Shown here: in pieces, positions 6,000 to 50,788 of the stretch
Layout of the letters: each line of letters opens with the position of its first letter
Position numbering within the stretch: position 1 is the first letter of the stretch
Source of the DNA: Isoetes taiwanensis
Taxonomy: Eukaryota > Streptophyta > Lycopodiopsida > Isoetales > Isoetaceae
Length of the DNA: 64,000 nucleotides
NCBI GenBank assembly: GCA_021234155.1
Contig: JAJEKV010000093.1
Span: 434,001 to 498,000 of the forward strand
Direction of reading: 5' to 3'
Program-made: the position numbers and the translations under genes
The notes under the pieces: generated by a model
The model's input: the letters and a program-made list of their open reading frames with translations, nothing else
Told to the model about the DNA's origin: nothing
Databases searched by the model: none

Positions 6000-8900
6000 G
6001 TTCCCTGAAAATTAAGTGCAAGTTTGAAATGGCCCGCCAGCCTTCAATGAGAAAGTCTAGAACCAGGAAGAATTCAGATGGCTTGGTTCTATACGAAATT
6101 TATGCTCAGCTTTCTCCAACGTCTCATTGAGCGCCCATCTCATTTGTCTGATTTGGTGCCCATCTCATTTGGCACTCAGCTATGTCGGCTTGGAAACGTG
6201 AGTAGAGAACCGGCAGGATCTGTAGGTATACACAGCTTTGGAATGACTTTGATGGTGGCATCCTGCTAAAAAACTAAATAACATTTTTTTCTCGGGATTT
6301 TTTGTTCTGATCTTCCTTCTGGAGCCGAGCTTGGAATGTTTCTCATTACTTTCATTTGATCATTTGTGCTTGAGCTGGGTCGGATAGTGCTAGAAGACTA
6401 ACGATAACATTTTTTTCTAAATATTTCCAGGATTTAAAGCTTCCGATTTGTTCTTCTTTCTAAATATTTCCAGGATTCAAAGCTTCCGATTTGTTCTTCT
6501 CTTGCTTCTGCAAATACAAAATAATCAAATCACTATGCATGTTCTTCTGCGATTTTAATTGGTAAGATTGCATCAGTTCAGAAACGACTGTTTTGGTCAT
6601 GTTTCTTATTTGAAAAATATTTTGGCATAAGTTGGAGTTGCTGCAGCTTGGCATCCAGTCGTACATCTGATTGAAAGCTACCCAATACAATATCTGACAT
6701 CCAGTTTATACATCCAGTCACACAATATCTGACAGAAATTATGCTGACAGAAATTCTGGTAATATGTTTATGCCTCTTCTCTTTCTTAGTGTTGGAGTAA
6801 ATCTTTATCTTCTTTACAAGAAAATGTGCATGTAAAAAAGACTGTACCAGTTTGCATGTTGTAGATAATTCCATTCAGGAAGATTATTTTCAATGAGGTC
6901 TCAATTACACTCGAATATACATGTCAATAATATCATGTAGCATACCCAGTTACTCTGATAAGTTATGCGCATCAAAACCTAAAGGAAATACCCCTTTCAT
7001 AGCTACAACAGCAAGCCTCAAAGCATCAAGGAGGAGGAGATGCAATTGAAACATGGCTCTGGCAGAAGCGATTCGAAAAACATGAGGACGTCTGCATTCT
7101 TCATCATCGAACAGAATCCAAGAAGGAAATCCAGCTTCTATTTGTGGCCAAATCCACAAGCCTTTGCTTTGAGGGGATTCCGTCGTTGTATTGAGGGGAT
7201 GTATTTTGCTAATGTTTGTTATAAGGTTGAATGTCTTTAAATATTAATTGAATTAAAATTTTGTTTTGCTTCCTCAAATTGCATATTGCTTCTGATTTTG
7301 CAGGGTTGCAGCCTTATTACTTACACTCGACCAGGGATTGTTGCTGAAGAGGTATATCTTTATTGTGGTAATATCTTTATACCTCTTCTCTTTCTTATGT
7401 TGGAGTAAATCTTTATCTTCAGTTTGCCAGTTTATCTTAAGTTTGCATGTAAATCGGGTGTACCAGTTTGCCTGTTGTAGATAATTCCATTTGTAGCACA
7501 AGCAGGGAAGAGGGATTTAGATTCATAATATGGCGCTCCTTCCATCTTTATCTCATGTCTATATCCAGTTCTTTTGCAATGGAATTGAAGTTATTGCCAT
7601 GTAACTTAAATCTATGTGCACTTTTGAAGCTGAAACATGTGAATGGAAGGACGTGCACAATTAGATTTATATGTTCATGCTTTCTTATTGACTCAGATCT
7701 GCACCAGAACCTACACCTAGCTCACGTAAGTATGAATTAACTGCAGGCCTACGCATATTTTTAAAGAAGAATAAACCATGGTACCGATGTACCAGTGTAC
7801 TGATGTGAATGGATTCGTCACTCTACTTTCTCTATCAGAAAGTTATATTTGAATCATGAGGATGGAGAGTGGCTGCGAGCAGACCTCTAAATTTAGCTAG
7901 CGCCACACCCCCATTTACATGCTTCTATTATAATCTTTAGTGTCCTGAATTTTTCTAAATTTAAAACGCATATTGCTGCAGCATCTCCTGCAATGGATAC
8001 AACTGCATGAACCTGCACATTGTGAGCATCGATTTTGTGATATGGGCAAGCAAAAGCTAGTAAGCATTTTTTTCTCTTCGCTTATGATGCTAGCTATATA
8101 GAATGCCAAGGTTCATTCTTTGTTATTCTGTTTGTAGATCCTTGCAAAAGTTGTCTAACATAACAGATTCGAGATGTGGATTTGACATGGGTCTATGAGC
8201 TTGATCACTGATTCTTACTACCAACTGGAGCACTTTCTCTAGCGACGCTACTTTGACTGTTGAAATTTCTGCACTACAAGCACCGCTAGGTATTTACAGT
8301 TCAATAACCATCTTACTTTAAATTATCATTTCGTACTTTTGTTGTATAGGAGGATTAAAATCTTTGGAGCATTGGCTTTCTAACAAGCATTGTTGTTTCA
8401 TCTCTGCAGGAACACCATGCAAGCAACTATAGCATTTGAAGATATGTCAGCAAGCAAGTGTTTTAAGCAACGCCATGCCCCTTGAATTTCTATGCATAAA
8501 TGAAACATGTGTTTTGTTTTCAAATGAAATAGGTTTTTCTGTATGCCCATGTCCAGTACATTGAATCAACATACCTTTTTCCTAGATTCTTTGTCCTCAT
8601 AACCAAACATTAGGAGGGTAAGTTTGTTTGCTTCTTTATTTTCTATGCTTTCTGATACAAATGTTTGCAGGGTGTAGGAATCACTTGGCTTAGTTCCATA
8701 TTCGTATAGAGAAGTCATAGAGCCAGGTTTCATGCAAGAATAAGTTTTAGGAACATCATCGTGAACATAGTGGTGGTTATATTTCTCCATGTGTTGGGAA
8801 TTTAAAATTTCGATTTGCAGAGCCACAATTCTGGGTGGAGACATCTTCCAAGGTAATGAATGTTCCAACAACATTTCTTTTTGAGTGGCAACATCTTTTT

Positions 8901-23711: not shown

Positions 23712-23716
23712 ACCTC

Positions 23717-25692
23717 TGTGACGTTCCAAGTATTTATATGGTATACGTATAAATATATTGACACGTCACCCAGTATAGATACGCCACCATGGGGTATGGT
23801 AACCTAGGGGGTTGACTTAAAAGGGATTAAATTAGCTATGCTAATTTAATTATTAAGGATAATAACCTATAATTAAGGAACTCATATTTAAAAGGCATAA
23901 TTAAGTTAATTATGGTTTGGGAAGGCGCCAAGTGGCCACCATCGATTGGCTAACATGGTAATGCTAATTGAGACCAATAAGGTGGATCACCACCCCCATA
24001 TCAGCCACAATTCACCTTGAGCAGTGGAGTGCCACCCTTGTGACCAGAGCTGAGCGCCACCTTGAGCAGTTGGACGCCACCCTTGTGACCAGAGCTGAAC
24101 ACCAAGACCGAGAAGATGGAAATCCCCAATGATAACGGGTCCAGCAGAAACACATGTGGGTGGCTAGGGTAGTTGTGAATTCTAGGATAGCGCCCCTGTT
24201 GGGCACATGTTGGGTTGGTTGTCTGTTCTCTCTGTGTTTATACTCGTAGGAACTAACCCTTGATTGTAAAGGTAAGTTCATTCTCTTTATATTCTGATTC
24301 TGGGATTGCTTTCAAAGGATGGATTGTTAGTTTCTTTGCATAGTATTACTCTTGGAAATGGGGAATTCACGGGAGGGTAAAAGCATGTTAGGGTGTCCCT
24401 TAAAAAGTATTATTTAGTGACCAAAAAAGTACCTAAAAAGGTACCCAGGACTGGGTACTGGGTACTTGTGTAATATCTCAATAAAAGGTACATTCTAGAA
24501 CTTTTATATATATTTTGGTCTCCAGTAGCATTATCTTTATCTTAACTTTGAATATTAATGCGTCCTTGACTTTTATTTTGGACTTTTGTACTAGTTTTAA
24601 TGAAAATAAAAATGAGAAAGTACCCAGTTCTGAAGTACCTAGTGTATGTACTTTTGCAGGTTCCAAAAGTGGTACACCCTAACATGCTTTTACCCGGGAG
24701 GGTAGAGACCTCTGAGCCCATTTATTGTAGTATGCTCCTAGATAAAGCCCTGTATTATCCCATTAGATGCGGCCTGTGCACAAGAGCCCACCGGGTCATA
24801 GATGCTATGGACTGGCTTAGCACCAGACAAGGAACACAGTGGTGAAGTGGGGGTGGGGTCTTGCACGAACATAAAAGGCTCCTGAGACTCTACAGTGGGC
24901 TAGGCCTAATGGCCCGGCCCTACGAGCTAGGCTGGCCGGCGGGTATGGGTCCGACACTTCACGGTGCGAGAGGTGTGACCCGCATGGGGCATCTGTACTT
25001 TGAGTAGATTTAGGGTGAGTAAATTAAGTGCGAATCGCACGGGGGTCGCTTATGCGCACGCGTATTCTCTAGCTCACCCATGGAACCCTTGTGTTTACGG
25101 AAGGGGACGCTTCCGACCTGCCTCATCGGACCGAGGCTTCATGAACCTGGAGGTAGGCTCGGCGAGGGTGATGCCTCGAGCCTAGCGTCTCGAAGGCTAT
25201 AAGCGAAGCCATGGCGTGATTTCGACCCATCGCAAAGTGTGCAATGTGGGGGCGGATGGAGTGGACAACCCTAGCCCGATGTTCTATGCCGATAGCGCCC
25301 GGGTTATACCTCATGTCGCGCTGATCTCTTGAGGCGGAGCCGTCGATCTATCCTCGCGTGAGTCTACGAACGAGGGGTAGAACACGGGGTTTGGGGTGTT
25401 TTCTTAGGTTTAGATGCATATTCTTTGCCGTTGGTATTTGGATGGATGTGCCACCCCCCGTGGTGGTTATTTATATGTGATTTATCTTTGTGTGCTAACC
25501 CTTGTATTCACGCAGCGGCGTAGAAGCCCATTGAAGGCGTGGGCGAATGACCCCTCTGTGTCCTTCACTTGGCGTCTTATTATAGGCGGCCCGAGTTAGG
25601 CGGAGGGGCCACGCTTATGGCAAGTCGGTTGCCATGGGAGGAAAGTCCCGTATGTATCACGGTAGGGTCGTATATGTTCGAGGCGCCCGCCA
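23717..25692 (+). repeat. 5' LTR (with an internal MITE)
   Basis: It aligns along its length with 32,149-33,818. It is longer by about 325 bp because of an inserted element at 24,376-24,694 and one target duplication. The right end (GGCGCCCGCCA) is diverged from the 3' LTR end (GGAGCGTCACA), so the exact boundary is set by the adjacent primer site. Confidence 0.85.
24376..24694. mobile_element. MITE inserted in the 5' LTR
   Basis: Perfect terminal inverted repeats GGTAAAAGCATGTTAGGGTG (20 bp) bound a 319-bp AT-rich non-coding interior. CGGGAG flanks both sides (24,370-24,375 and 24,695-24,700), while the 3' LTR has the single uninterrupted site. The insertion therefore postdates integration of the retrotransposon. 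The superfamily is uncertain because the duplication length could be read as 6 or 8 bp. Confidence 0.85.
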
Positions 25693-25694
25693 GA

Positions 25695-25706
25695 TGGTAT
25701 CGAGCC
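25695..25706 (+). promoter_or_regulatory. Primer binding site, initiator tRNA-Met type
   Basis: TGGTATCGAGCC two bases after the 5' LTR matches the common plant site TGGTATCAGAGCC except for one missing A. Confidence 0.75.
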
Positions 25707-26401
25707 GTGATTTGGTTTTTCGAAATCATAGCACTGACTAAACCCTAACTCGCTAGTTCGGTAGTTAGGAGAGAGAGTTTAAGCAAGAGTGATTGTTTAA
25801 GTCTTTGATGTTTGGTTTGGTGCTAGGTTAATGTAATAGACTGTAAGTCCTTAAGAAGTCTGGGCCAACTGGAAGACCCAAGTTTCGAAGAGCTATAACT
25901 TTTTGTAGGTAGCTCGGATGAAGGCGAAAACGGCTTCAATGGATCGGGCACCTCTCAAATACCCTAGGGGGCACGTCTCCCGAGGTCAAAAAGACAACAG
26001 GCCGCCGAAAAATGAAAAGGGGCGCTGCTGTACTCAGAGGTGTTTCTTTTGAAAAATTAAAGCCGCATAAGCAACGCAGCGCCCCATACGGTCGCGCGTA
26101 TTTTTATACGCGCCCGTTTAAAAATTTTTATAAAAAAATTAATATTTTTTTTGAAAAATTTAATAAAAAAGTTAAAAGTTAAAATTTGAATTTTGAGATA
26201 TATTTTTGGACGTGTGCTTTCTCTGAGCGCCCTTTTCCGCCATAACCGCCGGACTTAAGCTCCAAACTCGCCATAGCTGACCTCCACGCCTCCCTTGCAT
26301 CTGCCCTACACCTCAGCGCCCTTACTTACTCCTTAGCGCCGTCCATCCTTGCCTGGGCGCCTCACCTTCCTCCTCCCTTGCTGTTCTTTGCTAGTACAAC
26401 C

Positions 26402-27026
26402 ATGTCGCGCTTTAAGCTAACCGTGGACTTGAAGAAGTTGAGCGTATTTCAGTTATTTGCCGCGCTAGTCGAGCATCTTGCCGACGAAGACCCTATGATA
26501 GATACTATTCTTGGTCTTTTCGTCAAGCACTTTGTCGAGGACCGAAGAGTCCCCTACCCTATCTTCCATTTCAACGAGCGCTTCCTTATCAAGTTGAATG
26601 AAGCCGATCAGGCCTACACTCTCGTGGAGCAGCCGGACCATGCATGGGCTGTGGTTAAGTTTTACCCTCGCCCGGGACGGATAGCGACCTGCCGAGCTTA
26701 TTCGAAATGAAGCCCAGAGGATCATGCATCTTGCGAGAGTGGAAGACTTGCAGCAGATAGCCAGTGCTCCACCGGACATAAGGATGGACCGCTTCTATTA
26801 CTTGGGAAAGGGCCGTATACTCACATACCAAGAATACTTTAATCTTCCTACCTTTTCTTGGAATGAAGGCCTACTTGACTTCATTTTTGAAAATGTTACG
26901 CCAAGGTTTAGCCAATGCCACGGAATCCATCCAAGAAGACATGCGAACACACCGCCGGACCGGTACCATCTTGAGATTGCCCGGCGCGATACAAATGCGT
27001 CCCGGATAAAGAGGCGAGGGGGCTAA
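26402..27026 (+). CDS. Retrotransposon ORF1, N-terminal part (unrecognised, frameshifted)
   Basis: From ATG 26,402 a 103-codon frame (MSRFKLTVDLKKLSVFQLFA, then EHLADEDPMIDTIL) runs to 26,710. Coding-like sequence continues in another frame to 27,026 (RIMHLARVEDLQQIASAPPD, FYYLGKGRILTYQEYF), so a single-base shift near 26,700 is likely. I find no gag zinc knuckle (CCHC) and no family. The second frame is the same frame as the H3 domain downstream (27,246-27,713), separated by several stops and shifts in a GC-rich, charged linker (REAAQKEGEDLH). ORF1 may once have been one protein ending in H3. Confidence 0.4.
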
Positions 27027-27245
27027 GAGAGAGGCGGCTCAAAAGGAAGGGGAGGACCTTCATAGCCAGCCAGGCGAGAACCGGCAGGTGGATCAACAAG
27101 CAGAACCCCGATGTTGACCCAGCGGGACCTAAAAGGGCGGGCGAGCGTTAACCCCGGGAAACCCGGACATGCGGCGGCGTGAACCATCCGGCAGACCCAC
27201 GGGGAACCCCAAAGAAGAAGCGATGGGGGGCGGGGTAACCGAACA

Positions 27246-27713
27246 TTGAAGAGAAAGAAAACCAAACCCGTGAAGAGTGGGGTGCACTATAAGACCCGAC
27301 TGCAGCAGGATGCAACCATTGCTAAGAAGACATCGGCTCAGAGACGGGAGCACATCGTCCAGCGGACAAAGCATCCTTTGACAGGCGGCAAATCCATTCC
27401 GTCGCTTAAGGCGACCCTCAAGCCGCGGAAGCCCCATAGGTATCGACCCGGCACGGTAGCTCTTCGAGAGATACGTAAGTATCAGAAGACTACCGAGCCA
27501 TTGATCCGCCGGCTTCCCTTCCAGCGGCTTGTACGGGAGATCACCCAGGACTTCAAAACCGACCTAAGGTTTCAAGCTTTTGCGGTCCTCGCCTTACAGG
27601 AGGCTGCCGAGGCTTATCTCATTGAACTTTTGAGCGACGCCAACCTTTGCGCCATACACGCAAAGAGGGTCACTATTATGCCCAAGGACCTTCACTTGGC
27701 ACGAAGGATCTGA
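27246..27713 (+). CDS. Histone H3-like domain inside the retrotransposon
   Basis: The frame has no ATG at its start. It opens with a basic segment, then [10 protein letters not shown] (recalling the ARTKQTA/STGGK tail), then a near-complete H3 histone fold. Visible H3 motifs are [66 protein letters not shown] and LARRI. It then stops (TGA), lacking the final RGERA. Tyr after PHR and Leu in AVLALQ are positions where plant H3.3 differs from H3.1, so the source was probably an H3.3-type gene. Substitutions include a Pro in [10 protein letters not shown] before AVLAL, and IELLSDA for VGLFEDT. No loop-1 insertion typical of CENH3 is present. There are no introns, as expected of a captured mRNA copy. 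About 95 fold codons are open without a break, despite the frameshifts upstream. Confidence 0.85.
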
Positions 27714-28013
27714 GGGGATTTTAGATGATTAGGCGACCGTCTTTTTCCCTTGTAAAAATTTTTGTAACTTATCCATGTACTAGTCCCGTTTTGGGGGTTA
27801 TGAATATAAAAAAAAAAATGACTTTCTTTTTTTCCTTTTCGAAAAAAAAAGTAATAATGAAAATAAACATATTATTAATTAAATAATAATTAATAACAAT
27901 AACTTTGGGAAAACGTGCCCAAAAAGTATAAAACCCCTTTTTGGCCATTAGAGTTTCATTTTCCCTTCTTGCTTCTGCGCCTCCTTTCTCCTCCTTTGCG
28001 CCTTCACCCCTCA

Positions 28014-29397
28014 TGGGCCGCCCAACATTGCAGCAGTGGTATTTGGACGGAGAGCATTGGGACCCTGCGGTTCCCTTTGATCTTCTTCACCCCTACCTGC
28101 TTCAGCAGGTAGATCTTATCTCCAACATGCAGGCTCATCCAGATTATGCTGTTTTCCTTAGTTCTATTGTGAGGAGATTGTACCTGCATGCGTTTACAAT
28201 GAAGACGATGAGCAGCTCTATCTTGACTTTCATACCCTGCACCAGATGTTAGGGGGTGATGAGCATGGCCGCAACGTCATCAAAGGCATCAGACGGCGAG
28301 GGACCGACCTCCCTATAGTTACAATAGATCGGGAAACTTGTTTTGAGGCCCGATTTGCACTGGCCATTATCATGGACCAGTACATAGAGAATGAGGAGAT
28401 TCCTGCTGAGCATTCTTCTACGCCTCTACCTCGACCTGGGAAGATGGCGAAGTCGTCGTGGCGCAGGATTTTTTGTAGGTGGAAGGAACTTGCCACGAAG
28501 CCCCCTGCCGGCCGACGAAAGCCCTCAAGCTCGAAGGGTTAAACCTTTTTCCTGCCGTACTCTTGAATAACCAAGAGTACCTGATCTTTGAGGATATTAT
28601 GTGGGCCTACTGGCGTTCTTCTGGGATCCGCCCGTTAAGAAAATAGAGATTCTCTATGATCTTGCGGAGTATTACAAAAGATGACTTCATTGACTTCACC
28701 ACGGTTGTGCAACCCGCACAAGTAGAGAGCCTATTGGCATATCGGCCCGGGAGAGCAAGAGCCGTTGAGACTCTTACGTCGCCGCCCAGTTCTTCTTGAA
28801 AGTGACACACCCGACCTCGGAAGAAGCGGTTTGCGGCCCGGTCGGCCTTCTCTCTCGGATCCGCCTTTGCAAATCACCATGGGAGAGGTGGATCAGGGCC
28901 GAGGAAGACCTTTGGGACACCAAGGTCAGCCTTAAGGATGACATGGAAGAAGAAGAGGAGGAGAAGCTTCCCACCAACTTCTGAGGAAAGAACCAGGAGA
29001 CCTCCACAGGCCACCAGTTAGGGCAATGGGGAACCATGTGGCCCGATTCTTTCTCTCGACCTTCCGCCAAGGAGAGGTGCTATTTTTCTCCAAGAACCTT
29101 GGGCCTTCTTACGAAGCTTCTTGATGGGCTCAGAGCCATATCCACTTCACGGGCCATAAGAAGATTGACTATCACGTCACCACCATTACTTTGGTCCGTA
29201 GAGATTTGGCTATAGCAGCATTGGGGGATGTGGCGGGCTGCGCTAACATGCGCCTCCTTGTGGCGGCACCTTTGGCTACTTGCTTACCCCCTGAGGCAGC
29301 AGCTCGAGCCGCCCTCTCTGCTAGCCCTAGCGCCGCTTTGATGCGTTACCGTCCACCTCCTCAGCCAATGGACGAAGACGAGGGACCTAGCTCCTAA
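28014..29397 (+). CDS. Retrotransposon ORF2 (unrecognised, frameshifted)
   Basis: The best start is ATG 28,014 (MGRPTLQQWYLDGEHWDPAV). The frame shifts once near 28,200 into NEDDEQLYLDFHTLHQMLGG and MDQYIENEEIPAEH (to 28,542). Broken coding-like pieces continue to a stop at 29,397 after a proline-rich, acidic end (PPPQPMDEDEGPSS). No retroviral enzyme motif is visible (no DTG, no YxDD, no HHCC). The codon use is GC-richer than in the flanking DNA. Function unknown. Confidence 0.35.
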
Positions 29398-29569
29398 GCA
29401 ATTGTATTATGTATTTTGCATTTGAAATAGCTGTAAAATTTTCATTGGCAATGTCTTAAGCCATGGTTATCACTCGTGATGAGTATCCTTTATGATTACT
29501 GTCTATTGTATCAATTCAATACATAATGCCAATATAAATTTGAATAATTCTCTTCCATGACGAGTCGTT

Positions 29570-30688
29570 ATGCCTCCTGGAATTGTTTGCACTATATACT
29601 CATTCCGCCGTTTTGCAGAAGAAACACTAGAGGAGTACGAAGAGAGGATCACAGACCAGATATTGAGGGATGACCAAGGACCTCCTGAACAAGATTACGG
29701 CCAAAGATACGGCGAGTATCCGGAACGAGAAAGTGACGATGAGATAGAGGAACCTGCAGAGCCAGAAGAACCTTATGACCCAGACAAGGGGATGGAAATA
29801 GTTACCCTCCTCCGGGAACGGGCTTTCGACGACCTGAAATGGACCCTTTGCCGCACTTGGGACTATTGGAATATGTCCAGACATGAAGCCTTCGAGGATG
29901 CCAATGACCACCTGTGGCAAATCTTCTACGCTCTAAGGAGGCTTTTCAATCTCCTCATTATTAGCCCCACTTGGGATTATCAACCCGTTATCATCCAGGC
30001 TTGGGCACGTTACAAGCTCGTCAGAGCTGTACGTTAGAGTGTGCGCTATTCGGTCATGTATTCCTTTGCAAACCCCTAAGCCGGATCTTCCAGTTTTGTG
30101 TTCCTATGCTTCAGTATGACCAAGGAAGTGGCCTGTATCAGGTCCACTTATATGTATTATATAACTATAAGCTTATAACTAATTTCAGTGTGAAGATTTC
30201 CAATGTAACAGTTACTTCGCTTATAATTAAAATCTTCAATCGTTTTTCGTGTTCACTTTGTTTTCTCGACACTACCTAAAATGATCTTGCTGTGAGACTT
30301 AATGTTACTGCAATTTTGCTTATATCGTCTTATGTTTAATATAGACGGCGCACGCAACGCCGCCTGGCAGACACCCTCAAACGCCAGTCGGTTAACACCC
30401 GAACAAGAATTGATGTTGATGAAAAGACAGCTAGGCGAGTTACAGGCCTATGTGTTGCATGCTAACCCACCACAGCATGTACAAGAAGACGGACCGGAGT
30501 TACCTCCGTTGCCGCCTAGTCCACCTACACAGCAGCCGTCCCCACCAGAAACTAGCCCTGTACCTGCGCAAAAGAGGCCCCAGTCTAAACGCCGACGGAG
30601 TTCCTCTAAAGGCAGTGCCACCTCCTCGGAATCTGCCACTTCAATGTCGTCTGAGTCGTCCGCCTCATCCAGACCAAGCTTGCTATGA
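29570..30688 (+). CDS. Retrotransposon ORF3, acidic plus Pro/Ser-rich protein (possibly spliced)
   Basis: The first frame (ATG 29,570, to 30,037) encodes 155 residues: YEERITDQILRDD, an acidic middle (EEPAEPEEPYDPD) and a W-rich helical end (WTLCRTWDYWNMSRHEAFED). A second frame ending at 30,688 has TPEQELMLMKRQLGELQAYV (a likely helix), then a Pro-rich and a Ser/Arg-rich tail. A weak intron (donor near 30,009, acceptor ATATAG near 30,344) would join them in phase. Its end overlaps, in a different frame, the truncated integrase start, so this marks the rearrangement junction. Confidence 0.35.
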
Positions 30689-31566
30689 GCACCGCATATC
30701 ATCCTCAGACGGATGGTCAGACAGAGCGTACCAATCGTATTATAGAGGATATGCTACAAAGTTATGTGTGGAGTAAGCAATCCCAATGGGCTGACTATAT
30801 TTATCTAGTTGAGTTTGCCTATAACAGTATGAAACAGGAGTCTATGTCTCCCTTCATGATAAATTATGGTTATCAATGCCTAACTCCCGACACATGGCAT
30901 AACCCCGTTTCCAAAGTGGAGGTTTCTCAGCAACTCCTCTTGGAAATGCAAGCTCTCGTTGAAGAAGTTCGTGGGTACTTACTAGCGGCACGCAGTCGTC
31001 AAAAGAGTGTTGCAGATAAGCACAGAACCCCACGAGTCTTCCAGGTGGGTGAATCAGTTTGGCTTAAGATTAAAGTAAAACAAGCCAAGCTTAAGATTGG
31101 TAACTGCAAGAAATTGGCACCCAGATGGGCTGGGCCGTTCAAGATCATTGAACGTGTTGGGGAACAGGCATATCGCCTCGATTTGCCACCCCGCTTGAAG
31201 ATCCACAAGGTCTTTCATGTGAGTCTTCTAAAACAGCACACCCCAGATCCAGACGAGATCTTGGATACACCCACCCTACTTGAAATGACAGAAGAGCAAT
31301 TGAATATAGTGCCTGAAGCTCTTCTTGATCGAGCATATAAGCAGACTCGAAGGACCCAGCTGCTGCAATACTTGGTCAAGTGGAAACACTTGCCAGTGGA
31401 GGATGCTACGTGGATGATGGAAACAGACCTTGAGAAACACTATCCGGACTTCATGCGCGAATCTCAAGGCCGCACCATCAACGATGCTATCAACCCCGCT
31501 CCCGGCGGTAAGCCTGAAGGCTTGATTCGCCGAGAATCAGGCAGTAGAAGGGTAGATGCATCGTAG
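30685..31566 (+). CDS. Integrase C-terminal region plus chromodomain (N-terminally truncated)
   Basis: The frame begins MSTAYHPQTDGQTERTNRI, the segment holding the third catalytic residue (Glu of DGQTE) of the Ty3/gypsy integrase core. It continues to the GPFKIIERVGEQAYRLDLP barrel, KIHKVFHVSLLKQ, and a chromodomain (LLQYLVKWKHLPVEDATW). Missing are the zinc-binding HHCC domain and the first two catalytic aspartates. The frame reads back to TKLAM at about 30,673, where homology ends and ORF3 sequence begins. Chromodomains of this class (chromoviruses) guide integration to heterochromatin marked by methylated H3. An H3-like protein in the same element is therefore intriguing. Confidence 0.9.
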   Translation: MSTAYHPQTDGQTERTNRIIEDMLQSYVWSKQSQWADYIYLVEFAYNSMKQESMSPFMINYGYQCLTPDTWHNPVSKVEVSQQLLLEMQALVEEVRGYLLAARSRQKSVADKHRTPRVFQVGESVWLKIKVKQAKLKIGNCKKLAPRWAGPFKIIERVGEQAYRLDLPPRLKIHKVFHVSLLKQHTPDPDEILDTPTLLEMTEEQLNIVPEALLDRAYKQTRRTQLLQYLVKWKHLPVEDATWMMETDLEKHYPDFMRESQGRTINDAINPAPGGKPEGLIRRESGSRRVDAS

Positions 31567-32135
31567 TTGACAACAGTTACCGATGATGGGATCACCTTCG
31601 TGTTCCTTAGGACGTCGTGTACTGTCAATGTGCACACGACCGCCAACTGCTTGTAAAGCATCTAGATGATAGCCGCATTCATCTTGGCTATAATAGGAAC
31701 TTGACCATTCCTTACGCCGCAATGAATTGTGAACCATAGGCATGATAGGTTCCTTGTAGATAAATTTTCTTTTATTTTTTTAGGGGGTGGACCCTTCAAC
31801 CACAACCTAATTATTTTATCTATACAGACTGATATATTGACATGTGCAGGCCAGTGAGCAGTACGTGACCTGCCCATGTTAGAGGGTTGCTGATGGCCCG
31901 ATTTCTTCACTTTATGTTTTCTACATGTTTTGTTTGTTGTTCCATTGATGTTGGTATTGTTGGTCCTTGAACTTTTTTTAATTATGATAATCATGTGAAC
32001 TGCACTTTGGTGCTTAAACTATTCTAAACTTTGAAGTTTTAATATATTACCTTCTGAAATAAGGAATTTCCTTCCTTCCTAATGTCATTTACTATATTTG
32101 TATCTAACCCCAATGCTGAGGACAGCATTAATTCT

Positions 32136-32148
32136 AAGGAGGGGAGAA
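32136..32148 (+). promoter_or_regulatory. Polypurine tract
   Basis: AAGGAGGGGAGAA lies directly before the TGTGACG of the 3' LTR, the place where plus-strand priming occurs. Confidence 0.85.
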
Positions 32149-33818
32149 TGTGACGTTCCAAGTATTTATACGGTATACGTATAAATATATTGACACGTCA
32201 CCCAGTATAGATACGCCACCATGGGGTATGGTAACCTAGGGGGTTGACTTAAAAGGGATTAAATTAGCTATGCTAATTTAATTATTAAGGATAATAACCT
32301 ATAATTAAGGAACTCATATTTAAAAGGCATAATTAAGTTAATTATGGTTTGGGAAGGCGCCACGTGGCCACCATCGATTGGCTAACATGGTAATGCTAAT
32401 TGAGACCAATAAGGTGGATCACCACCCCCTATTAGCCACAATTCACCTTGAGCAGTGGAGCGCCACCCTTGTGACCAGAGCTGAGCGCCACCTTGAGCAG
32501 TTGGACGCCACCCTTGTGACCAGAGCTGAACACCAAGACCGAGAAGATGGAAATCCCCAATGATAGCCGGGTCCGGCCAGAAACACGGGTGGGTGGCTAG
32601 GGTAGTTGTGAATTCTAGGATAAGCCCTGTTGGGCACATGTTGGGTTGGTTAATCCGTTTTCTCTACGTGTTTATACTCGTAGGAACTAACCCTTGATTG
32701 TAAAGGTAAGTTCGTTCTCTTTATATTTTGATTCTGGGATTGCTTTCAAAGGATGGATTGTTAGTTCCTTTGCATAGTATTACTCTTGGAAATGGGGAAT
32801 TCACGGGAGGGTAGAGACCTCTCGAGCCCATTTATTGTAGTATGCTCCTAGATAAAGCCCAGTATTATCCCATTAGATGCGGCACTGTGCACAAGAGCCC
32901 TAGGGTCATAGATGATATGGGTGGCTTAGCACCCGGACAAAGGAACAGTGGTGAAGTGGGGGTGGGGTCTTGCCACGAACATAAAAGGCTCTCGAGAGAC
33001 TCTGATTGGGCTAGGCCTAATATGGCCGAGCCCCGTGAGGGCTAGCCTTGGGCCGGGCGGGTATGGGTCTCGACACTTCACCGGTCTGAGAGGTGTGACC
33101 GCATGGGGCATCTGTACTTTAGTAGATTTAGGGTGAGTAAGTCGAATGCGAATGCGGGGGGTGCCGATGCGGCACGTATTCTCTAGCTCACCCATGGAAC
33201 CCATGTGATTACGGAAGGGGACGCTTCCACGACCGCCTCATCGGACCCAGGGGCTTCATGAACCACGGGTAGGCTCGGCGAGGGGGTGATGCCTCGAGCC
33301 TGCGTCTCGTGGAAGGCTATAAGCGAAGCCATGGCGTGGCTTCGACCCATCGCAAAGTGTGCACGGGGAGGGGCGGATGGAGTGGACAACCCTAGCCCGA
33401 TGTTCTATGCCCGATACGCCGGGTTATACCTCCGTCTGGCGATCTCTTGAGGCCGAGCCGCCGATCTATCCTCCTCCGTGAGTGCGAGCAGGGGTAGAAC
33501 ACGGGGTTTGGGGTGTTTTCTTAGGTTTAGATGTATATTCTTTTTGCCGTTGGTATTTGGATGGATGTGCCACCCTTCGTGGTGGTTATTTATATGTGAT
33601 TTATGCTGTGTGCTAACCCTTGTATTCACGCTTCCGCGACATAGGCGCCCATTGAAGGCGTGGGCCGAATGACCCCTCTGTGTCCTTCACTTGAGCGTCT
33701 TATTATAGACGGCCCGAGTTAGACGGAGGGCCCTGCTTATGGCAAGTCGGTTGCCATGGGAGGGGAAAGTCCCCGTATGTATACGACCGAGGGTCGTATA
33801 TGTTCAGGGAGCGTCACA
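32149..33818 (+). repeat. 3' LTR
   Basis: A 1,670-bp copy of the 5' LTR without the MITE, starting TGTGACG and ending CGTCACA, followed by ACCTC. Many differences from the 5' LTR are one- to three-base indels in CG/CHG-rich stretches. Confidence 0.9.
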
Positions 33819-33823
33819 ACCTC

Positions 33824-34481
33824 AAAATCAAACACCACCTCTGCCAAACCACACAACACCTGCTGAAGCGAAACACAAGCACAAGAAGGAAGAGGACTTA
33901 AAAGACAAAACGAAATCATATTTCTTGCCTATGGCGGAAATCGAACATGCTTTTGGCTATGGCAGAAGGAAGGATGTCGGATTCTGCATCTGTGCCCTCT
34001 GTGCCCTGAACCCTCCCAGATTCACTCCATATTTACTGCTGCCAGAATCGATTTCAAGACGCCGGTTGCCTCTGAACCCTGCAGAATAACTCCGCCATGG
34101 CCAAGCAGCCGCCCACGGAAGAACTCCGCCATGCCCTGCCCTAACGCCCAAATTCGACACGAATCCCACTTTCCTAATACAGAAAGGAAAAAAAATGGCA
34201 CACCTTATAAAACCCACACCACATTTACTGACATCAGCATAATACTATTTTGGCATACGAATACACCCTTAAACCATGCACAATCATATGTAATACCACA
34301 CCCAAACAACATTTTGGGAACTTAAAAGGGATTTTGAGGGCACTTTGAAGGTTTCTGAAGGAATCTTAGGGAATATAAAGGGAATTTAGGGGAATCTCAA
34401 AGAATCCGAGGAATCATGGAGCATCTAAGAAGTAGAAACGCGCATTTTTTCTTCAACACCGGAGCTAAATCTTGTATAAGA
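33824..34481. other. No gene recognised
   Basis: The sequence continues the left flank of the retrotransposon. A GGCAGAGGTGG (minus, about 33,835-33,845) resembles a pol III A box and would lie about 50 bases from the B-box-like motif at 23,675 if the retrotransposon were absent. Frames in this interval are short and mutually overlapping. Confidence 0.35.
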
Positions 34482-36018
34482 CTAGTAACGGTGCCCAGCG
34501 TTGCTGGGCAAAAATTGGGTGTTCCATGTGAAAAAATGGGTTTTCCGCTTCCCTTTTCCTTTCAACTTTCCATTCCCTTTTCATACTTTCCCCACCCTTT
34601 TGCTTTGCGATGTTCCCTTTTTCCCTTTCCTTTCTCTTTCCCCTTCCTTTACATTTTCCCTTTCCCGTTCCCTTTCCCTTTTCATATGCCTCTTTCCATT
34701 CCCTTTTCTCAACCTTTTTTATACCCTTTTTCCTTCTTTCCCCATCCTCTTCCCCCTTTTCCCCTTTCCACTTTCTCCTTTCTTGTTTCTTTTTTCTTTT
34801 CTCTTTCCCATACTCTTTTTCCCTTTCTTTTTTCTATTTCCTCACCCTTTCCCTCTTCCCTTTTTTCTCGTGCCCTTTTCTCCTTCCTCTTTTCCTCTTT
34901 TCCTATTCCTTGCTCCCTACCCTTTGTCTATTCTACTTTCCCCCACCCTTTTCCTCCTTTTTCCATCCTTTCCCTCTTCCTTTTTCTCGATGCTCTTTTT
35001 GCTTCCATTTTTCTCTTTCTTCACCCTTTCTCTCTTCCCTTTTTTTCACGCCCTTTCATTTTTTCTTTTTTTCTCGTTCCCTTTTCCCAAGTTCTCTTTT
35101 TCCCTTTTCCCCCTCTCTTTTCCTTTTTACTTTTCTTTTTCCCATGGACTTTGCAACCTTTTCTTATTTTCCCTTACCTTTTTCTCCTTTTCTCACCCTT
35201 ACTTCTTACCCTTCTCGCGGTGCCCTTTTTCCTTTCCCTTTCCCCCTCGCCTATTCTATTCCTTTTTCTATTTCCTTTTATCTTTCCATTTTTCCTTTTC
35301 TCCTTCTCTTTCCTTTTTCCTCTTACCTTTCTTTTATTCCTTTTCCCTTTTCGCTTTTCCCTTTCATCGTTTTTCCTTTTCCCTTCCCCTTTTCCGTTTC
35401 CCTTTTCGCTTTTCCCTTTCATCGTTTTTCCTTTTCCCTTCCCCTTTTTCTTTTCCCTTTTCCCTTTCATTGTTTTTCCTTTTCCCTTCCCCTTTTTCTT
35501 TTCCCTTTTCCCTTTCATCGTTTTTCCTTTTCCCTTCCCCTTTTCCTTTTCCCTTTTCCCTTTTCCCTTTCATTGTTTTTCCTTTTTCCTTTTCCCTTTT
35601 CCCTTTTCCCTTTCATCGTTTTTCCTTTTCCCTTCCCCTTTTCCTTTTCCCTTTTTCTCTTTCATCGTTTTCCTTTTCCTTTTCCTTTTCCCTTTTCCCT
35701 TTTTTTCCTTTTTCATCGTTTTTCCTTTTCCCTTTCCCTTTTCCTTTTCCTTTTCCCTTTTCCCTTTCATCGTTTTTCCTTTTCCCTTCCCCTTTTCCTT
35801 TTTCCCTTTTCCCTTTTCCCTTTCCCCTTTCCCCTTTTCCTTTTTCCTTTTCCTTTTTCTTTTTCTTTTTCCTTTTTCCTTTCATATTGATGCCATAGTC
35901 AAGATGAAATTTTAGTTGAAGACACGCACACATCATCTCCACCATTGGTCAATCAAATCCTCGACCGTCCGATTTAGGGCTCCATTGAAGACACACGCTA
36001 TAACATTATAATATAAGA
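34482..36018 (-). mobile_element. Non-autonomous Helitron containing a pyrimidine tract
   Basis: The 3' end (minus strand) has hairpin GCCCAGC-AACGC-TGGGC (34,493-34,509), a short spacer and CTAG (34,482-34,485) followed by host T. The proposed 5' end (minus) starts TCTTATATTATAATG after a host A (36,018/36,019), a typical AT-rich Helitron start. The hairpin and CTAG layout matches the second Helitron at 10.9 kb. The interior is almost entirely the pyrimidine tract. No Rep/helicase gene. Confidence 0.6.
34545..35882. repeat. About 1.3-kb homopyrimidine-rich tract / minisatellite
   Basis: The plus strand is almost pure C/T. The right half is built of a unit of about 60 bp: CCCTTTCATCGTTTTTCC, then TTTTCCCTTCCCC and TTTTCCC runs. 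All three plus frames stay open for 400-500 codons of Phe/Pro/Ser/Leu only because stops need purines, so no protein is claimed. The tract could form triplex (H-DNA). Confidence 0.9.
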
Positions 36019-42600: not shown

Positions 42601-44482
42601 TCGGCCGCCGGTGCATAACACTCACATGGTGGCGAGGGCCATGCTGGAACAGTGAAACATTATTGTATCGGAGCCGGAATTGCCCGCAATTTGTATGCAA
42701 TAACTCAAGAAGTTGTACCCGACCTTCTAGGTGGCAACTGGCGAGATGTCTCGCGGAGAGTAACGGTAGAAGCCGGGGCCGGGTGGATCACGGCAAGTAT
42801 CCACGAAGGCAAACACCGGGTGAGCATCAATCATGTCCAAGGGCGGCTAAAGATGCTTCCGGGAAGATGGGTCGAGGATGGGATATTTGGGGCCCAAAGA
42901 AGGGGGTCATGCGAAGGTATGGCTCAATTGTGGGGGTCATAGGGTTTGTGGCTTGGCACGCTAATTACTGAATCGGGTTCTTTGATTTTTGGGTCTCCCC
43001 TAGCCATCACAGCTTAATCTTAGGGTCATCGACGCTTTTACTAGGCGTGAAGCGAGGACTTGGAGAGCAATCACCAAAGGTAAATCAAAGAACACGTAAA
43101 ACCAACAAAGATGAGCAAGAACAACAATTGGCGGATTTGTTGGACTAGACCGTTTGGGAGAAGAGTCGGGAATTTGTTGGACCGGGGAACTAAAATTGCC
43201 AAACCAAACTAAGTGCCATACCAGAAAAAGAGCGCAAGAGCCAGGCATGATGCGATGCTTAGATCTCATGCCAAAAAAGGCTGATGTAAATCCCGAATGG
43301 GCCGAAGGCGAGAGCATTCTGACCGGCCGGATCTTCTTGGCCGGGCGCCAAGCTTGCGAAGCCCTTACCCGGTTGTTTGAAGCTTGGCTGGAATCTGGGG
43401 TCTGGGGCCACGCTTCCCCTCTTCTGCTGCTTGCTAGGCTGGCGCCGAGGCACCTAGATGCTTAGGCGGCGCGGAGAAAGGAGGAGGAGGAGAGGGCAAC
43501 CCTTGTTGCCTTACCTAGCTTATTTCGTTTTGTTCAATGGTACAAATTCCCGGCGCGTTTTTGGAGTTCTTTTATTCGTTTTCCGACATTTTACGATTGG
43601 GGGACTCAATGAATAAGGAACGTTTTCAAACCTGGAAGTTCGTATTCTCAATAAGCATGAGGGCGCCCCAACCTCAGCCTTGATACCGTAACAGGGTCTT
43701 CAAGGTGAGGACATGGCCATGGCTATTGCCATGGGAACGTGCTCTAAAACTAAAATTAAGAAACTAGGAATGGATTAGCTTCAAGATGCCAGCGTGCATT
43801 CTTGAGCTTATTTTGAGCTTTGTCCATCAAGGGAAGAAAATGGGGCTAGAAATCGAGTCCAGGGATCAGGTGTTTACGGACAATTTGCCTATGGTGTTTT
43901 ACGGGCGTCGAAACACCCAATGCTCTGGAAGTGGTGTTTACGGCCAAAAAGTGGTATTTCGGCCAAAACCAAGCCAAAAACTAGCGGCGGAGCCAAAATC
44001 TTTGGTCGGATCCTTCTTACAGCTCCCTGGACGGCTTGAAATGCTTCAAAAGCCCTTCCAATCGCTTTGTCTTCCTCTTTAACACTAGTTTGATGAAGAG
44101 AGGAAGTGATTTGAGCTTCGAGATAGATGGGATCAAGCAAAAAATGACACAAAACAGATTGATTACGGGCTTAAAAACTGTGAAGTGCGATGGTTGATAA
44201 CGGTGGCCAGAAACACCACAAAAAAAGTCCGGAAACACCACATCCCGGACTCGATTTACGGGCGCCCAAGAAAATGCAGTAAATACGTTAACTTGAAAAT
44301 TCAAAACATAGGGATATATCCCCCCTTTAGCGTTTGAACTTTCGTCTACGTTACTTTTGTGCTCAACGTGTCTTTTCAAGTATGCATTGATCAGCTTGGA
44401 GATCAGTTTAATGGAAATTGGCCAGGTGATTTCTAACATATGTCGTTAGTTGTTCCTCTAATCAATTCTGGGCTCATGCTTG
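42600..44482. other. No gene recognised
   Basis: GC-richer sequence with short, overlapping frames on both strands (for example plus 42,652-42,942). It may include LINE 5' sequence. A palindromic ATGGCCATGGCTATTGCCATGG-like stretch lies near 43,710-43,735 (two CCATGG arms). Nothing is supported as a gene. Confidence 0.35.
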
Positions 44483-47452
44483 ATGGGAAGGTTTTTGAAG
44501 GTCTATCAAGATGTGTCTAAACTGTGCCAACAGGGATTCTTAGACAAGGCCATTCATGTCGCTGAGCAAATGCAGCATCAAGGTATCCCTATAACGAGAG
44601 AGGAAGCATACCTGATTCTTCAGAATTGTGAGAAAAGAAAGAACCTCGTAATTGCAAGACGGGTTCTCTCCTTGATTAGCCATAGCGGGCTTGATTCTGT
44701 AAGTGTCTTGGGGGACCATCTTATCAGGATTTTTACCTGCCATGGGTGTCTGGATGAAGCGAATAATATATTTAAGAAGGTGACCACACCAAGTGTATAT
44801 ACATGGGCTGCAATTATCATGGCAAATGCCAAGCTTGGAGATGGTAAGGCTGCCCTTGAGTCATATAAGAGAATGCAGCACTCAGGGTTGAAGGGCAATG
44901 AGTTTATTTACATTGGTGTCCTTAAGGGATGTACTATAGAAAAGAATCTCGTGCAGGGAAGAAATATACATCGCAGGATTCTGGGAGATGGATACCTTTC
45001 AGGCATTGTAGGAAATGCAGTTGTCGACATGTATGCAAAGTGCGGAAGTCTGGAGGAAGCACATGAAGTATTTGATATGCTGCCTAGTCGAGATGTGGTA
45101 GCTTGGAATATATTGATTTCAGGGTACGTACAGCATGGAGATTATGTTCACGCAGTTGAATGTCTTGAAAAAATGCAAATGCAAGGCATCAAACCAAATG
45201 TAGTCTCTTGGAGCACAATTATTACAGGATATGCTCAGAATGGCAAAGCCCTCCTGGCTCTGGATTTTTTCAAAAGGATGCAACAAGAAGAGATTGAACC
45301 AAATGAAGTTACATTCATTAGTGTGTTGAAAGCATGTAGCAGTATTGGAGAGATTGATCAGGGCAGGCTAATTCATAAGCAGATTGTTAGTTGCAGGTTC
45401 TGTTTGGATGCTATTGTCAATAATGCATTAATTGACATGTATGCAAAATGCGGAAGTGTGGAGGAGGCCTGCAAGGTTTTCATAAGAATCCCACGTAGAG
45501 ATGTTGTATCATGGGGTTCAATGATTGCAGGATATACACAGCATGGGAAAGATAGGCTGGCAATGCAGTGCTTTGAGACAATGCAATTAGAAGGTATAAT
45601 TCCAGATGAAGTCACATTTTTGAGCATCTTGAAGGGATGTGCAATAGAGGAAGGCAGAATGATCCACGTAAGGATTATCAAAGTTGGTTTCTTTTCAGAT
45701 GTAGTGGGCACTTGTCTAGCAGATATGTATGCCAAGAGGGGCAGCTTGGAGGAGGCACAAAGAATCTTTGAGAAATTGTCTAAAGGTAATGCTGTAGTTT
45801 GGAATATAATAATTGCAGGTTATACCAACAACATGCAAGGTCTTCTGGCTCTAGAATATTTGAAGAAGATGCAGAACGAGGGCGTCAAACCTAACTTAAT
45901 TACCTTTCTCAGCACACTAAAAGCATGTACTTGCGCTGGAGCAGTGGAACATGGTAGAATGATTCATGAAATGATTATTGAAGAGGGCCTTCAGCTGGAT
46001 CTCATTGTTGCGAGTACTTTGGTTGACATGTATGCGAAATGCGGGAACCTTCAAGAGGCATGCAAAGTTTTTGAGATAGCATCAAAGCATAATGTGGTCT
46101 TATGGGGCGCAATGATTGCAGGTTATGCCCTGCATGGAGAAGGCATTATGGCTCTCGATTGTTTTGAGAGAATGCGGGAAGAACATTTAGATCCGAATTC
46201 AATAATACTATTAAGTGTCTTAAAAGCATGTGCAATCACAGGAGCGATAGAACAGGGCAGGCTTATACATGAGAAAGTTATTTGTGCTGGAATCCAATTT
46301 GATATTCTTATTGGAAGTACACTGATTGACATGTATGCGAAATGTGCGAGACTAGAAGAGGCATGCAGCCTCTTCCAAAGATTGCCAAATCGCAATGTAG
46401 TATCATGGAATGTGTTAATTGCAGGACACATTCAGCAAGGGGAAGGTGAGTTAGCTCTCCAATTGTTTGACAATATGCAGCATGAAGGTATATTAATAGA
46501 TGGAGTTGTACTTATGAGCGGATCAAAAGCATGCGCCCAGATAGAGGCTTTAGAAAAGGGCAGGTATATTCATGAAATGGCTATTGCATATAGGCTTGAA
46601 TTAGATTCTGTTCTGATCACAACCTTGGCAGACATGTACGTTAAGTGTGGAAGCATAAACGAGGCCTGCAATGTTTTAAGTGCATTGCCTAATCACGATG
46701 TGGCATCATGGGCAGCAATGATTACAGGCAATGCACAGTATGGTGAAACTCTTTTAGCTCTACATTCTTTTGAAAAGATGCAACAGGAGGGCATAAAACC
46801 AAATTTGGTTGCATTGTCAGGTGCCTTGAAAGTCAATGCTCTCTTAAGTGCACTAGAGCAGGGACGGGTTATCCATGAAGTAGTTATTGAAAGTGGTCTT
46901 CAATCGAATATCTTTGTGGGAAGCTCCTTAATTGACATGTATATCAAATGCGGAAGCCTACAAGAGGCTTGCATAGTATTTGATAAATTGGAGGATCAGG
47001 ATACCATGTCATGGGGTGCAATGATTGCAGGATATGCACAATATGGTGAAATCCAGCAAGCTATAGAATGTGTGAAGAAGATGGAGGAGCATAGATTAAT
47101 GCTGGACGGCATTGTTTTTAATAACATTCTTATTGCCTGCAGTCGTGCAGGCCTTGTGGATGAAGGACAATGGTATTTTAGATCCATGATAAAAACTTAT
47201 GATATTGAACCAAGCATTTCCCATTTTAGTTGCATTGTTGACCTTTTAAGTCGTGGAGGACTCCTTGATGAGGCAGAGACTTTACTTCTTAGTAATGAGG
47301 CTGATATTGTTGGATGGACATCTTTGTTTAGTGCTTCCAAATTGCACGGAAATGTTGACCTAGGAAGGAGGTGCTTTGATGAAATTGTTCATTTAGATTC
47401 CTGGTGCGGTGCTGGTTATGTGCTAATGTCAAACATGTATGCTGACATTTAA
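44483..47452 (+). CDS. PLS-type pentatricopeptide repeat (PPR) protein, single exon
   Basis: ATG 44,483 is the first in-frame ATG after an upstream TAA (44,459), giving 989 residues without introns. Around 25 PPR motifs follow in P-L-S order. Recurring marks are DMYAKCG-LEEA, RDVVAWNILISGYVQHG, LALDFFKRMQ, IKPNVVSW and FISVLKACSS. PPR proteins bind organellar RNA one base per repeat and act in C-to-U editing, splicing or stability in plastids or mitochondria. The end reads GYVLMSNMYADI and stops, i.e. inside the E1 motif; no E2, E+ or DYW deaminase follows. The N-terminus (MGRFLKVYQDVSKL) is short for a transit peptide. The truncation may be natural, with a DYW partner in trans, or a recent nonsense change. 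Confidence 0.9.
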   Translation: MGRFLKVYQDVSKLCQQGFLDKAIHVAEQMQHQGIPITREEAYLILQNCEKRKNLVIARRVLSLISHSGLDSVSVLGDHLIRIFTCHGCLDEANNIFKKVTTPSVYTWAAIIMANAKLGDGKAALESYKRMQHSGLKGNEFIYIGVLKGCTIEKNLVQGRNIHRRILGDGYLSGIVGNAVVDMYAKCGSLEEAHEVFDMLPSRDVVAWNILISGYVQHGDYVHAVECLEKMQMQGIKPNVVSWSTIITGYAQNGKALLALDFFKRMQQEEIEPNEVTFISVLKACSSIGEIDQGRLIHKQIVSCRFCLDAIVNNALIDMYAKCGSVEEACKVFIRIPRRDVVSWGSMIAGYTQHGKDRLAMQCFETMQLEGIIPDEVTFLSILKGCAIEEGRMIHVRIIKVGFFSDVVGTCLADMYAKRGSLEEAQRIFEKLSKGNAVVWNIIIAGYTNNMQGLLALEYLKKMQNEGVKPNLITFLSTLKACTCAGAVEHGRMIHEMIIEEGLQLDLIVASTLVDMYAKCGNLQEACKVFEIASKHNVVLWGAMIAGYALHGEGIMALDCFERMREEHLDPNSIILLSVLKACAITGAIEQGRLIHEKVICAGIQFDILIGSTLIDMYAKCARLEEACSLFQRLPNRNVVSWNVLIAGHIQQGEGELALQLFDNMQHEGILIDGVVLMSGSKACAQIEALEKGRYIHEMAIAYRLELDSVLITTLADMYVKCGSINEACNVLSALPNHDVASWAAMITGNAQYGETLLALHSFEKMQQEGIKPNLVALSGALKVNALLSALEQGRVIHEVVIESGLQSNIFVGSSLIDMYIKCGSLQEACIVFDKLEDQDTMSWGAMIAGYAQYGEIQQAIECVKKMEEHRLMLDGIVFNNILIACSRAGLVDEGQWYFRSMIKTYDIEPSISHFSCIVDLLSRGGLLDEAETLLLSNEADIVGWTSLFSASKLHGNVDLGRRCFDEIVHLDSWCGAGYVLMSNMYADI

Positions 47453-50625: not shown

Positions 50626-50788
50626 GACTCCACCATCTGAAAACAAGGTAGTTAAAAAAAGACTTAAAATATAGTAAAATCAGAGCTTCTGATTGCACTT
50701 AGAGACTATTACCCGAATGCAATAGCGACAGCGCTGTTGGATTTGGGCAGCAATCTAGTCCTTTCCGTTACAAGACTGTCGGAAAGGG

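Follow-up and report, generated by a model that had tools for sequence, protein, structure and literature searches.

A 2025 review reports extra open reading frames (ORFs) in most lineages of long terminal repeat (LTR) retrotransposons (PMC12786077), and a survey of 121 plant genomes describes 15 unusual domains in LTR elements, naming PMD, G-patch, AIR1, AlkB, KOW, ArgoL2, and B3, with no histone among those named (PMC9289625). Orchid Ty3/gypsy elements, for example, carry an ALKBH5-like m6A demethylase that is active in vitro (PMC9289625). They resemble the family described here in that a captured host domain has been fixed in an extra ORF of a plant Ty3/gypsy element, but the domain is an RNA demethylase in the orchids and a histone in Isoetes taiwanensis.

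Captured histones have been described from viral genomes. The bracovirus histone CvBV-H4, reported to join host nucleosomes, is likewise a single core histone in a viral genome, with an ∼87% identical fold and an N-terminal addition of 38 amino acids (PMC9145170). It is an H4 from the descendant of a DNA virus and is delivered to another species, whereas the Isoetes family is an LTR retrotransposon carrying an H3 in many copies, with an N-terminal part of ∼350 residues and no recognizable tail. The H3 of phycodnavirus-like MAGs, likened here by description only, also has a C-terminal H3-like domain behind an extension (∼170 residues) without a known homologue but, unlike the Isoetes histone, belongs to giant-virus genomes (PMC9145170). 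As for the element itself, group II plant chromoviruses likewise have a chromodomain with W45 and without Y24/Y48, and some Selaginella elements share the 5-bp duplications and the tRNA-Met primer; the Isoetes family differs from the group II chromoviruses in having A-H3, B, and C as additional genes before gag (PMC3350952).

In the text of the viral-histone review, the word “retrotransposon” is absent (PMC9145170), as is the word “histone” from the main text of the I. taiwanensis genome paper (PMC8566536). A search of the literature on histones and captured genes in retrotransposons, covering titles and the beginnings of abstracts with subscription papers and preprints mostly outside it, showed no histone-encoding retrotransposon among the papers listed, in line with an earlier note on this DNA whose author knew of no such element. 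Gene capture by Ty3/gypsy elements is thus known, while a selected, fused core histone in one of them appears to be new.

A histone H3 fold inside a damaged LTR retrotransposon

The window analyzed here, a 64,000-nucleotide stretch of the I. taiwanensis genome, contains an LTR retrotransposon with TG...CA LTR ends and a histone H3 fold between the LTRs (Table 1), which confirms the central observation of the earlier note. The plus-strand ORF at 27183-27713 matches the Pfam Histone family with an E value of 3.2e-42, and its best solved chain in a PDB search is Histone H3.3 (7ux9_E, E value 1.2e-48). The primer site TGGTATCAGAGCC, which we take to be the complement of the initiator Met-tRNA, is intact in the sister copies L070 and L072. 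A MITE-like insert of ∼315 bp with the inverted ends GGGTAAAAGCATGTTAGGGTG lies within the 5' LTR at about 24380-24695. No Rfam match was found in the whole 64-kb window.

Table 1. Parts of the H3-bearing retrotransposon in the window
Feature	Position	Strand	Remark
5' target-site duplication, ACCTC	23712..23716	.	
5' LTR	23717..25694	+	starts TGTGACG; final ∼20 bases unlike 3' LTR
Primer binding site (PBS-like)	25695..25706	+	lacks one base compared with TGGTATCAGAGCC
Leader	25707..26401	+	no coding signal by codon statistics
Domain A and acidic/Gln-rich linker of A-H3 protein (N-terminal)	26402..27182	+	frameshifted in window copy, open in sisters
Basic extension	27246..27428	+	in H3 frame, ends TLKPR; sits at H3-tail position, homology not recognizable
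Histone H3 fold, residues 37-130	27429..27713	+	fold proper 27429-27710, then TGA at codon 131
Gene B	28013..29397	+	frameshifted in window copy; codon statistics z 6.9
Gene C	29570..30037	+	unbroken, 155 codons
gag, N-terminal part	30332..30669	+	in L070, frame continues into Ty3_capsid/Retrotrans_gag
Deletion junction	30666..30669	.	∼3.7 kb (gag to integrase core) missing compared with L070/L074
Integrase C-terminal part (SH3_Tf2-1) and chromodomain that looks like group II type	30670..31566	+	encoding frame spans 30655-31566
Polypurine tract AAGGAGGGGAGAA	32136..32148	+	directly before 3' LTR
3' LTR	32149..33818	+	terminates CGTCACA
3' target-site duplication, ACCTC	33819..33823	.	

The window copy is, as judged from its sequence, a damaged, pol-deleted derivative of its family. 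The fold has no in-frame ATG upstream; reading through A requires three frameshifts and two stops, and gene B requires five and two, respectively. Five of the six frames of this copy were scanned from the leader to 30655 and showed no protease, reverse transcriptase, or capsid domain.

Differences between the two LTRs affect 8.2% of columns, in addition to 39 indels, with only three substitutions and one indel in the first 300 columns. These differences are clustered (59% of neighbors lie within three columns, against 27% expected) and fall mostly in G+C-rich stretches, a pattern that resembles basecalling error in G+C-rich repeats more than it does ageing, with decay also possible. The published assembly (1658.30 Mb in 204 scaffolds and 909 contigs) is nanopore based (PMC8566536); given this and the clustering, part of the frame breakage in the window copy may be assembly error.

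The H3 segment is repeated across the host genome

We searched the host genome (1,658,258,908 bases in 1110 contigs) with the DNA of 27246-27713 and with a canonical H3.3 protein. The DNA query gave 1621 first-look candidates, a number that is not a copy count, and 40 of them were scored. All 40, the window's own included, carry the H3 segment at 87 to 100% identity, the 39 beyond the window at 87 to 98%, and at least half of the leader stretch 25746-26401 is present in 36 of these 39 fetched copies. Other LTR copies thus carry the H3 at the same place, as the earlier note had asked. The protein query gave 9103 first-look candidates (again not a copy count), among which the 150 scored matches comprise 15 host H3 genes (97 to 99% identity, full length) and 135 others at 72 to 87%. 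The DNA and protein lists overlap at no locus, so that, besides the host H3 genes, there are at least 175 distinct scored H3-bearing loci on 86 contigs, the window included. We read 45 of these 175, namely, all 40 copies of the DNA list and 5 of the 135 protein-list loci; the remaining 130 are matches only, and some of them may be pseudogenes or different H3 variants.

Of the 40 copies of the window subfamily (window included), 33 have an unbroken fold, and 10 have an open frame that begins at the first Met, continues through the H3 frame, and spans 400 codons or more. Seven of these 10 have one complete open frame of 430 to 459 codons, from M(P/M)RFKL to RG(D/E)FR, with H3 as the C-terminal domain, while the three other long-frame copies either start late (L010 and L018) or shift frame within the fold (L026). 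Within the protein list, 43 of the 135 loci fall within a stop-free open frame of 410 codons or more, and in 8 the match itself contains a stop. The statement in the earlier note that the frames around the H3 are broken therefore describes the window copy, perhaps in part through assembly error, and does not extend to the family, since A-H3 is open in 7 of 40 copies.

Anatomy of the element family

The copy L070/L074 (C1025) measures 13,432 bp, has the duplication ACAAA at both ends, and reads, in order, LTR, A-H3, B, C, gag, protease, reverse transcriptase, RNase H, integrase, chromodomain, and LTR. Its Pfam domains are Ty3_capsid (1.8e-15), RVP_2, RVT_1, RT_RNaseH, Integrase_H2C2, rve, SH3, and the chromodomain. 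The A-H3, B, and C frames are open, while gag-pol is split over several frames, making this an interrupted copy. LTRs, a 5-bp duplication, and a chromodomain at the C terminus of integrase, as in Ty3/gypsy chromoviruses, are present in both the window copy and L070/L074; the gag-protease-reverse transcriptase-RNase H-integrase order is seen in L070/L074, in interrupted frames, and not in the window copy. The family is a high-copy Ty3/gypsy chromovirus with one full-length element that has all gag-pol domains in interrupted frames, and its H3 is the conserved C-terminal domain of an ∼450-residue A-H3 protein that is encoded, along with B and C, after the 5' LTR and before gag. L071 is 82 to 89% identical to the window and has the same gene order over the fetched part, and A-H3 is the first long frame after the LTR in L070 to L072.

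A 500-base query across the window junction matched throughout only in the window itself, and 39 of the 40 scored places matched the integrase side alone, as one would expect if the A-H3-B-C block were a mobile element in its own right that had inserted into a Gypsy element. L070/L074 is, however, collinear with window 23739-30669 and 30666-33820, with ∼3.7 kb between them that are absent from the window: the collinear stretch in L070 extends from the LTR as far as gag, and L074 contains the remainder of pol, so that the junction results from a deletion that affected the window copy. LTR, primer binding site, and A-H3 also travel together in L070 and L072. Since a full-length copy exists, we regard the nested-element reading as refuted and assign it a very small probability.

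A second, diverged group has the same architecture. Its member L072 shares the LTR ends and the primer site and has an A-H3 frame of 420 codons, with B in two frames; gene B follows H3 in all five copies of this group that were read, and A-like frames precede H3 in four. The A domains are 37 to 38% identical between the two groups and B is 47 to 49% identical, compared with 23% between B and the B-like frame E. The open frame of B has 482 codons in L070 and 490 in L073 and is open to the fetched edge in L063 and L067; gene C is 96% identical in L070 and 70% in L073. Neither A nor B matched any known family, and a gene B profile gave no histone match against PDB. A comparison of the C-terminal parts of B and C with histone folds gave hhalign probabilities of 0.05 to 0.64%, but it had no power, as true-histone controls reached only 0.2 to 1.9%. 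Structure predictions for gene C and the first A frame, made without an alignment, had mean pLDDT values of 49.9 and 45.9 and were not used. Gene B may be a partner of A-H3, which it follows in both groups.

The chromodomain matches Pfam Chromo at E values of 2.6e-9 in the window and 6.2e-10 in L074. Of the aromatic cage Y24, W45, and Y48 that marks the H3K9me-reading group I chromodomains (PMC3350952), only the W of LVKW is present, with positions 24 and 48 judged by eye. The domain looks like group II type, and a role as an H3 reader, assumed in the earlier note, is not established by one of three cage aromatics. The elements also keep a gag CCHC zinc knuckle (a weak Pfam match, below the cutoff).

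Several further features were observed in these copies. L073 carries on the reverse strand (679-1287), upstream of the B-like frame E, an H3 domain (H3', Pfam 1.1e-29) that has diverged much further and may represent a third H3 lineage in elements of this type. L072 has on the reverse strand (6860-8347), 3' of gene B, a 496-residue frame with a Cys/His cluster that is RING-like by eye and has no Pfam match. In the window, similar A/T-rich 21-mers lie at 26113-26133 and 27747-27767, before genes A and B, and a TATAAAA lies at about 27927, before gene B; these could mark separate promoters or be due to chance.

Coding unit and purifying selection

Codon statistics, trained on the unbroken frames of the element and compared with shuffles, gave a coding signal that runs from 26402 to the H3 stop, with z values of 4.1 for A (equaled by 0 of 200 shuffles) and 5.1 for the H3 frame. 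The extension at 27246-27356 has a signal in the H3 frame (P = 0.003), and a signal is present again in gene B (Table 1); none was found in 27714-28011, the leader, or the 3' UTR. The coding unit starts at about 26402, far 5' of the H3 frame.

Over the 33 unbroken copies of the window subfamily, the fold has a dN/dS of 0.067 (mean dN 0.027, dS 0.409; Nei-Gojobori, 528 pairs), a pairwise rather than branch-model estimate from nonindependent pairs of copies that were chosen by query similarity, with broken folds omitted. The ratio falls with rising dS, from 0.254 (dS < 0.1) through 0.128, 0.081, and 0.071 to 0.055 (dS 0.5 to 1.5), as expected from selection at the level of the element overlaid by decay after insertion and by error. 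Columns varying in at least two copies number 11, 1, and 52 at codon positions 1, 2, and 3, respectively. The second group has a dN/dS of 0.062 (5 copies; 10 pairs, 4 of them saturated), and in comparisons between the groups, silent sites are saturated in 161 of 165 pairs and dN is 0.11. By segment, dN/dS is 0.086 in A, 0.338 in the linker, 0.150 in the basic extension, and 0.051 in the fold (36 pairs, 9 long-frame copies). The H3 fold and the A domain are under strong purifying selection.

These results bear on the view that one nonautonomous element picked up a host H3 cDNA, which is now decaying in it as a one-off passenger. Taken alone, the window copy fits this view, with no ATG before its fold, frameshifts in A and B, and pol deleted; nor did it bear out the impression of divergence mainly by conservative changes, for which a test on this copy was not significant (P = 0.07 to 0.12). 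A transduplicated passenger, however, would show few copies, stops, and a dN/dS near 1, the value set beforehand in the earlier note as the test across copies. We found at least 175 scored loci, a ratio far below 1, 33 of 40 folds unbroken, open A-H3 frames, and a gene order kept in a diverged group. Given the many copies and the selection, the passenger reading is refuted, and we consider it the least probable of all the readings weighed here. Past selection on the H3 frame, which the earlier note had suspected, now has stronger support than could then be claimed, and the view of the H3 as an element gene under selection is strongly supported.

Identity of the H3 domain

Residues 37-130 of the window copy form an H3-specific histone fold and align without gaps to an H3.3 reference sequence, to which 81 of 94 residues are identical (13 differences). 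The 61 residues before the fold, read in the earlier note as a remodeled but recognizable H3 tail, align no better than shuffles (P = 0.48 to 0.49). A free N-terminal tail with K4, K9, and K27 is absent, and intact copies have the extended N terminus instead. An apparent heterogeneity between fold and tail (P = 0.0006 to 0.007) was set aside, the tail alignment being insecure. At the other end, the shortened terminus that had been noted is real in the window copy, whereas its stop at codon 131 was seen in none of the 39 other DNA-list copies: 35 of these end in RRIRG(D/E)(F/L)R and a stop, and L013, L020, L026, and L041 differ.

Residues with presumed contact roles are conserved among the 38 unbroken copies. 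R40, R69, R83, and K115 as well as H113, D123, R129, and I130, to which we assign contacts with DNA, H4, H3, or Asf1, are kept in all 38. Residues 110, 113, 114, 116, 123, 126, 127, 129, and 130, which we take to be H3-H4, H3-H3, and Asf1 contacts, are kept in 36 to 38, and DNA-contact residues are kept in 37 or 38, except for K64R in 33. K56, K79, K115, and K122 are present in all 38. Position 87, presumably a determinant of the deposition pathway, is F in 37 of the 38 and H in one (L067), compared with S, T, or H in host genes.

The H3.3 type is set by residues 31, 41, 87, and 90. Residue 31 is not alignable in the retro-H3, and residues 41 and 90 are not diagnostic in I. taiwanensis: Tyr41 and Leu90, on which the H3.3 assignment had been based, cannot serve as H3.3 marks in this host, since all 15 host H3 genes carry both, whether H3.1-like or H3.3-like. 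The unbroken retro-copies themselves have F41 in 21 cases and Y41 in 17.

Origin of the captured H3

In a protein tree, a branch with support of 76/95, found in 99% of bootstrap trees, has the host rows and Arabidopsis H3.3 together on one of its sides. The window subfamily forms one group (95/95) and the second group does not, in a bootstrap that had not settled. Residues 86, 105, 107, and 124 set all 38 unbroken retro-folds apart from the host. We favor a single old capture of a host-lineage H3, which would have taken place before the two main groups parted. At residue 87, the H3.3-like host gene L048 and the retro-copy L067 alone have H, a hint that the source was H3.3-like. Capture of an mRNA had been concluded from the intronless frame; the absence of introns is no proof of such an origin, since none of the 15 host H3 matches is interrupted either. 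A run of 11 A at 27808 might be a poly(A) trace, but the 64 kb contain six A/T runs of this kind, and it carries no weight.

With queries from the damaged window copy, no relative was found outside the I. taiwanensis genome. A protein search with the tail (residues 22-80) gave no candidate sharing three words among proteins of 97 to 308 amino acids, and the read-through of 26685-27710 (residues 1-240) gave 1234 candidates, none with an E value of ≤1. The full ORF gave 7989 matches, an uninformative result in that the 120 listed were mostly proteins scoring about twice one H3 domain. In viral contigs, there was no exact match to the LTR or tail pattern, and none of 10 pattern matches encodes an H3 relative.

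Other features of the window

Four features lie outside the element. A tandem array with a unit of ∼2.47 kb and at least five copies occupies 48707-64000 and runs off the window end; its neighboring units differ at 0.2 to 4.6% of columns, and it has no Rfam match. A long pyrimidine-rich low-complexity tract at 34400-35900 leaves three frames open (with a Phe/Pro/Ser-rich translation). An intronless, unbroken pentatricopeptide-repeat frame of ∼996 codons lies at 44462-47449, and a frame for an NLI-interacting-factor-like phosphatase (Pfam NIF, 5e-15) lies on the minus strand at 1935-2468.

Discussion

We consider it quite probable that, as a whole, these observations are best explained by an element gene, A-H3, that arose from a captured H3 and acts on chromatin. 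The fact that evolution has kept the H3 intact suggests that the element makes use of it. After capture, the H3 tail would have been replaced by A and the basic linker. A-H3 would be translated from genomic RNA, on which its frame lies closest to the 5' end, enter the nucleus, and pair with host H4 through its little-changed H3-H4, H3-H3, and DNA-binding surfaces; the residue conservation is naturally read as pointing to a complex with H4 on DNA. Nucleosome-like complexes would then form whose H3 lacks the K4/K9/K27/K36 tail.

Among the functional readings, we place first, as the most likely, a change of chromatin in the element's favor, by which silencing marks would be diluted on the element's own copies. 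An alternative benefit would be that the A domain is placed on chromatin, perhaps serving integration. Marking chromatin through modifications of the H3 tail is unlikely, because the tail is absent. The more specific proposal that the tail-swapped H3 builds nucleosomes unable to carry H3K9 and H3K27 marks and so works against host silencing, with B as its partner, is tentative, and we would put it at somewhat less than even.

Two other roles have to be weighed against action on chromatin through incorporation. A-H3 might act on the element's own nucleic acid, condensing cDNA together with H4, helping the nucleocapsid, or tethering the integration complex. Conservation of the basic extension and of the H3 DNA-binding residues would suit such a role, as would the place of A-H3 directly behind the LTR and the lack of a recognizable mark-bearing tail; the gag zinc knuckle, weak match though it is, and the integrase chromodomain are, however, already candidates for both jobs, and we hold this role to be rather unlikely. 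A-H3 might also be a decoy that titrates H4 or the chaperone Asf1 and starves silencing-coupled nucleosome assembly without lasting incorporation. The near-complete retention of the presumed Asf1 and H4 contacts is compatible with this, and so is the F at position 87, which sets the retro-copies apart from the host genes. A decoy could do without the arginines that contact DNA, but these are retained in 37 or 38 of 38 copies, and the decoy role seems to us improbable.

Core histones are among the most constrained of host proteins, and chromatin is a main plant weapon against retrotransposons. If our reading is true, a retrotransposon-encoded H3 would be a new kind of move in the contest between host and element as well as a natural tail-swap experiment, and it raises the question of whether a mobile element can alter its own silencing by supplying a histone. 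The family would also provide, after the viral histones, a second genetic setting for the capture and remodeling of a histone, in a lycophyte, a lineage whose chromatin has been little studied.
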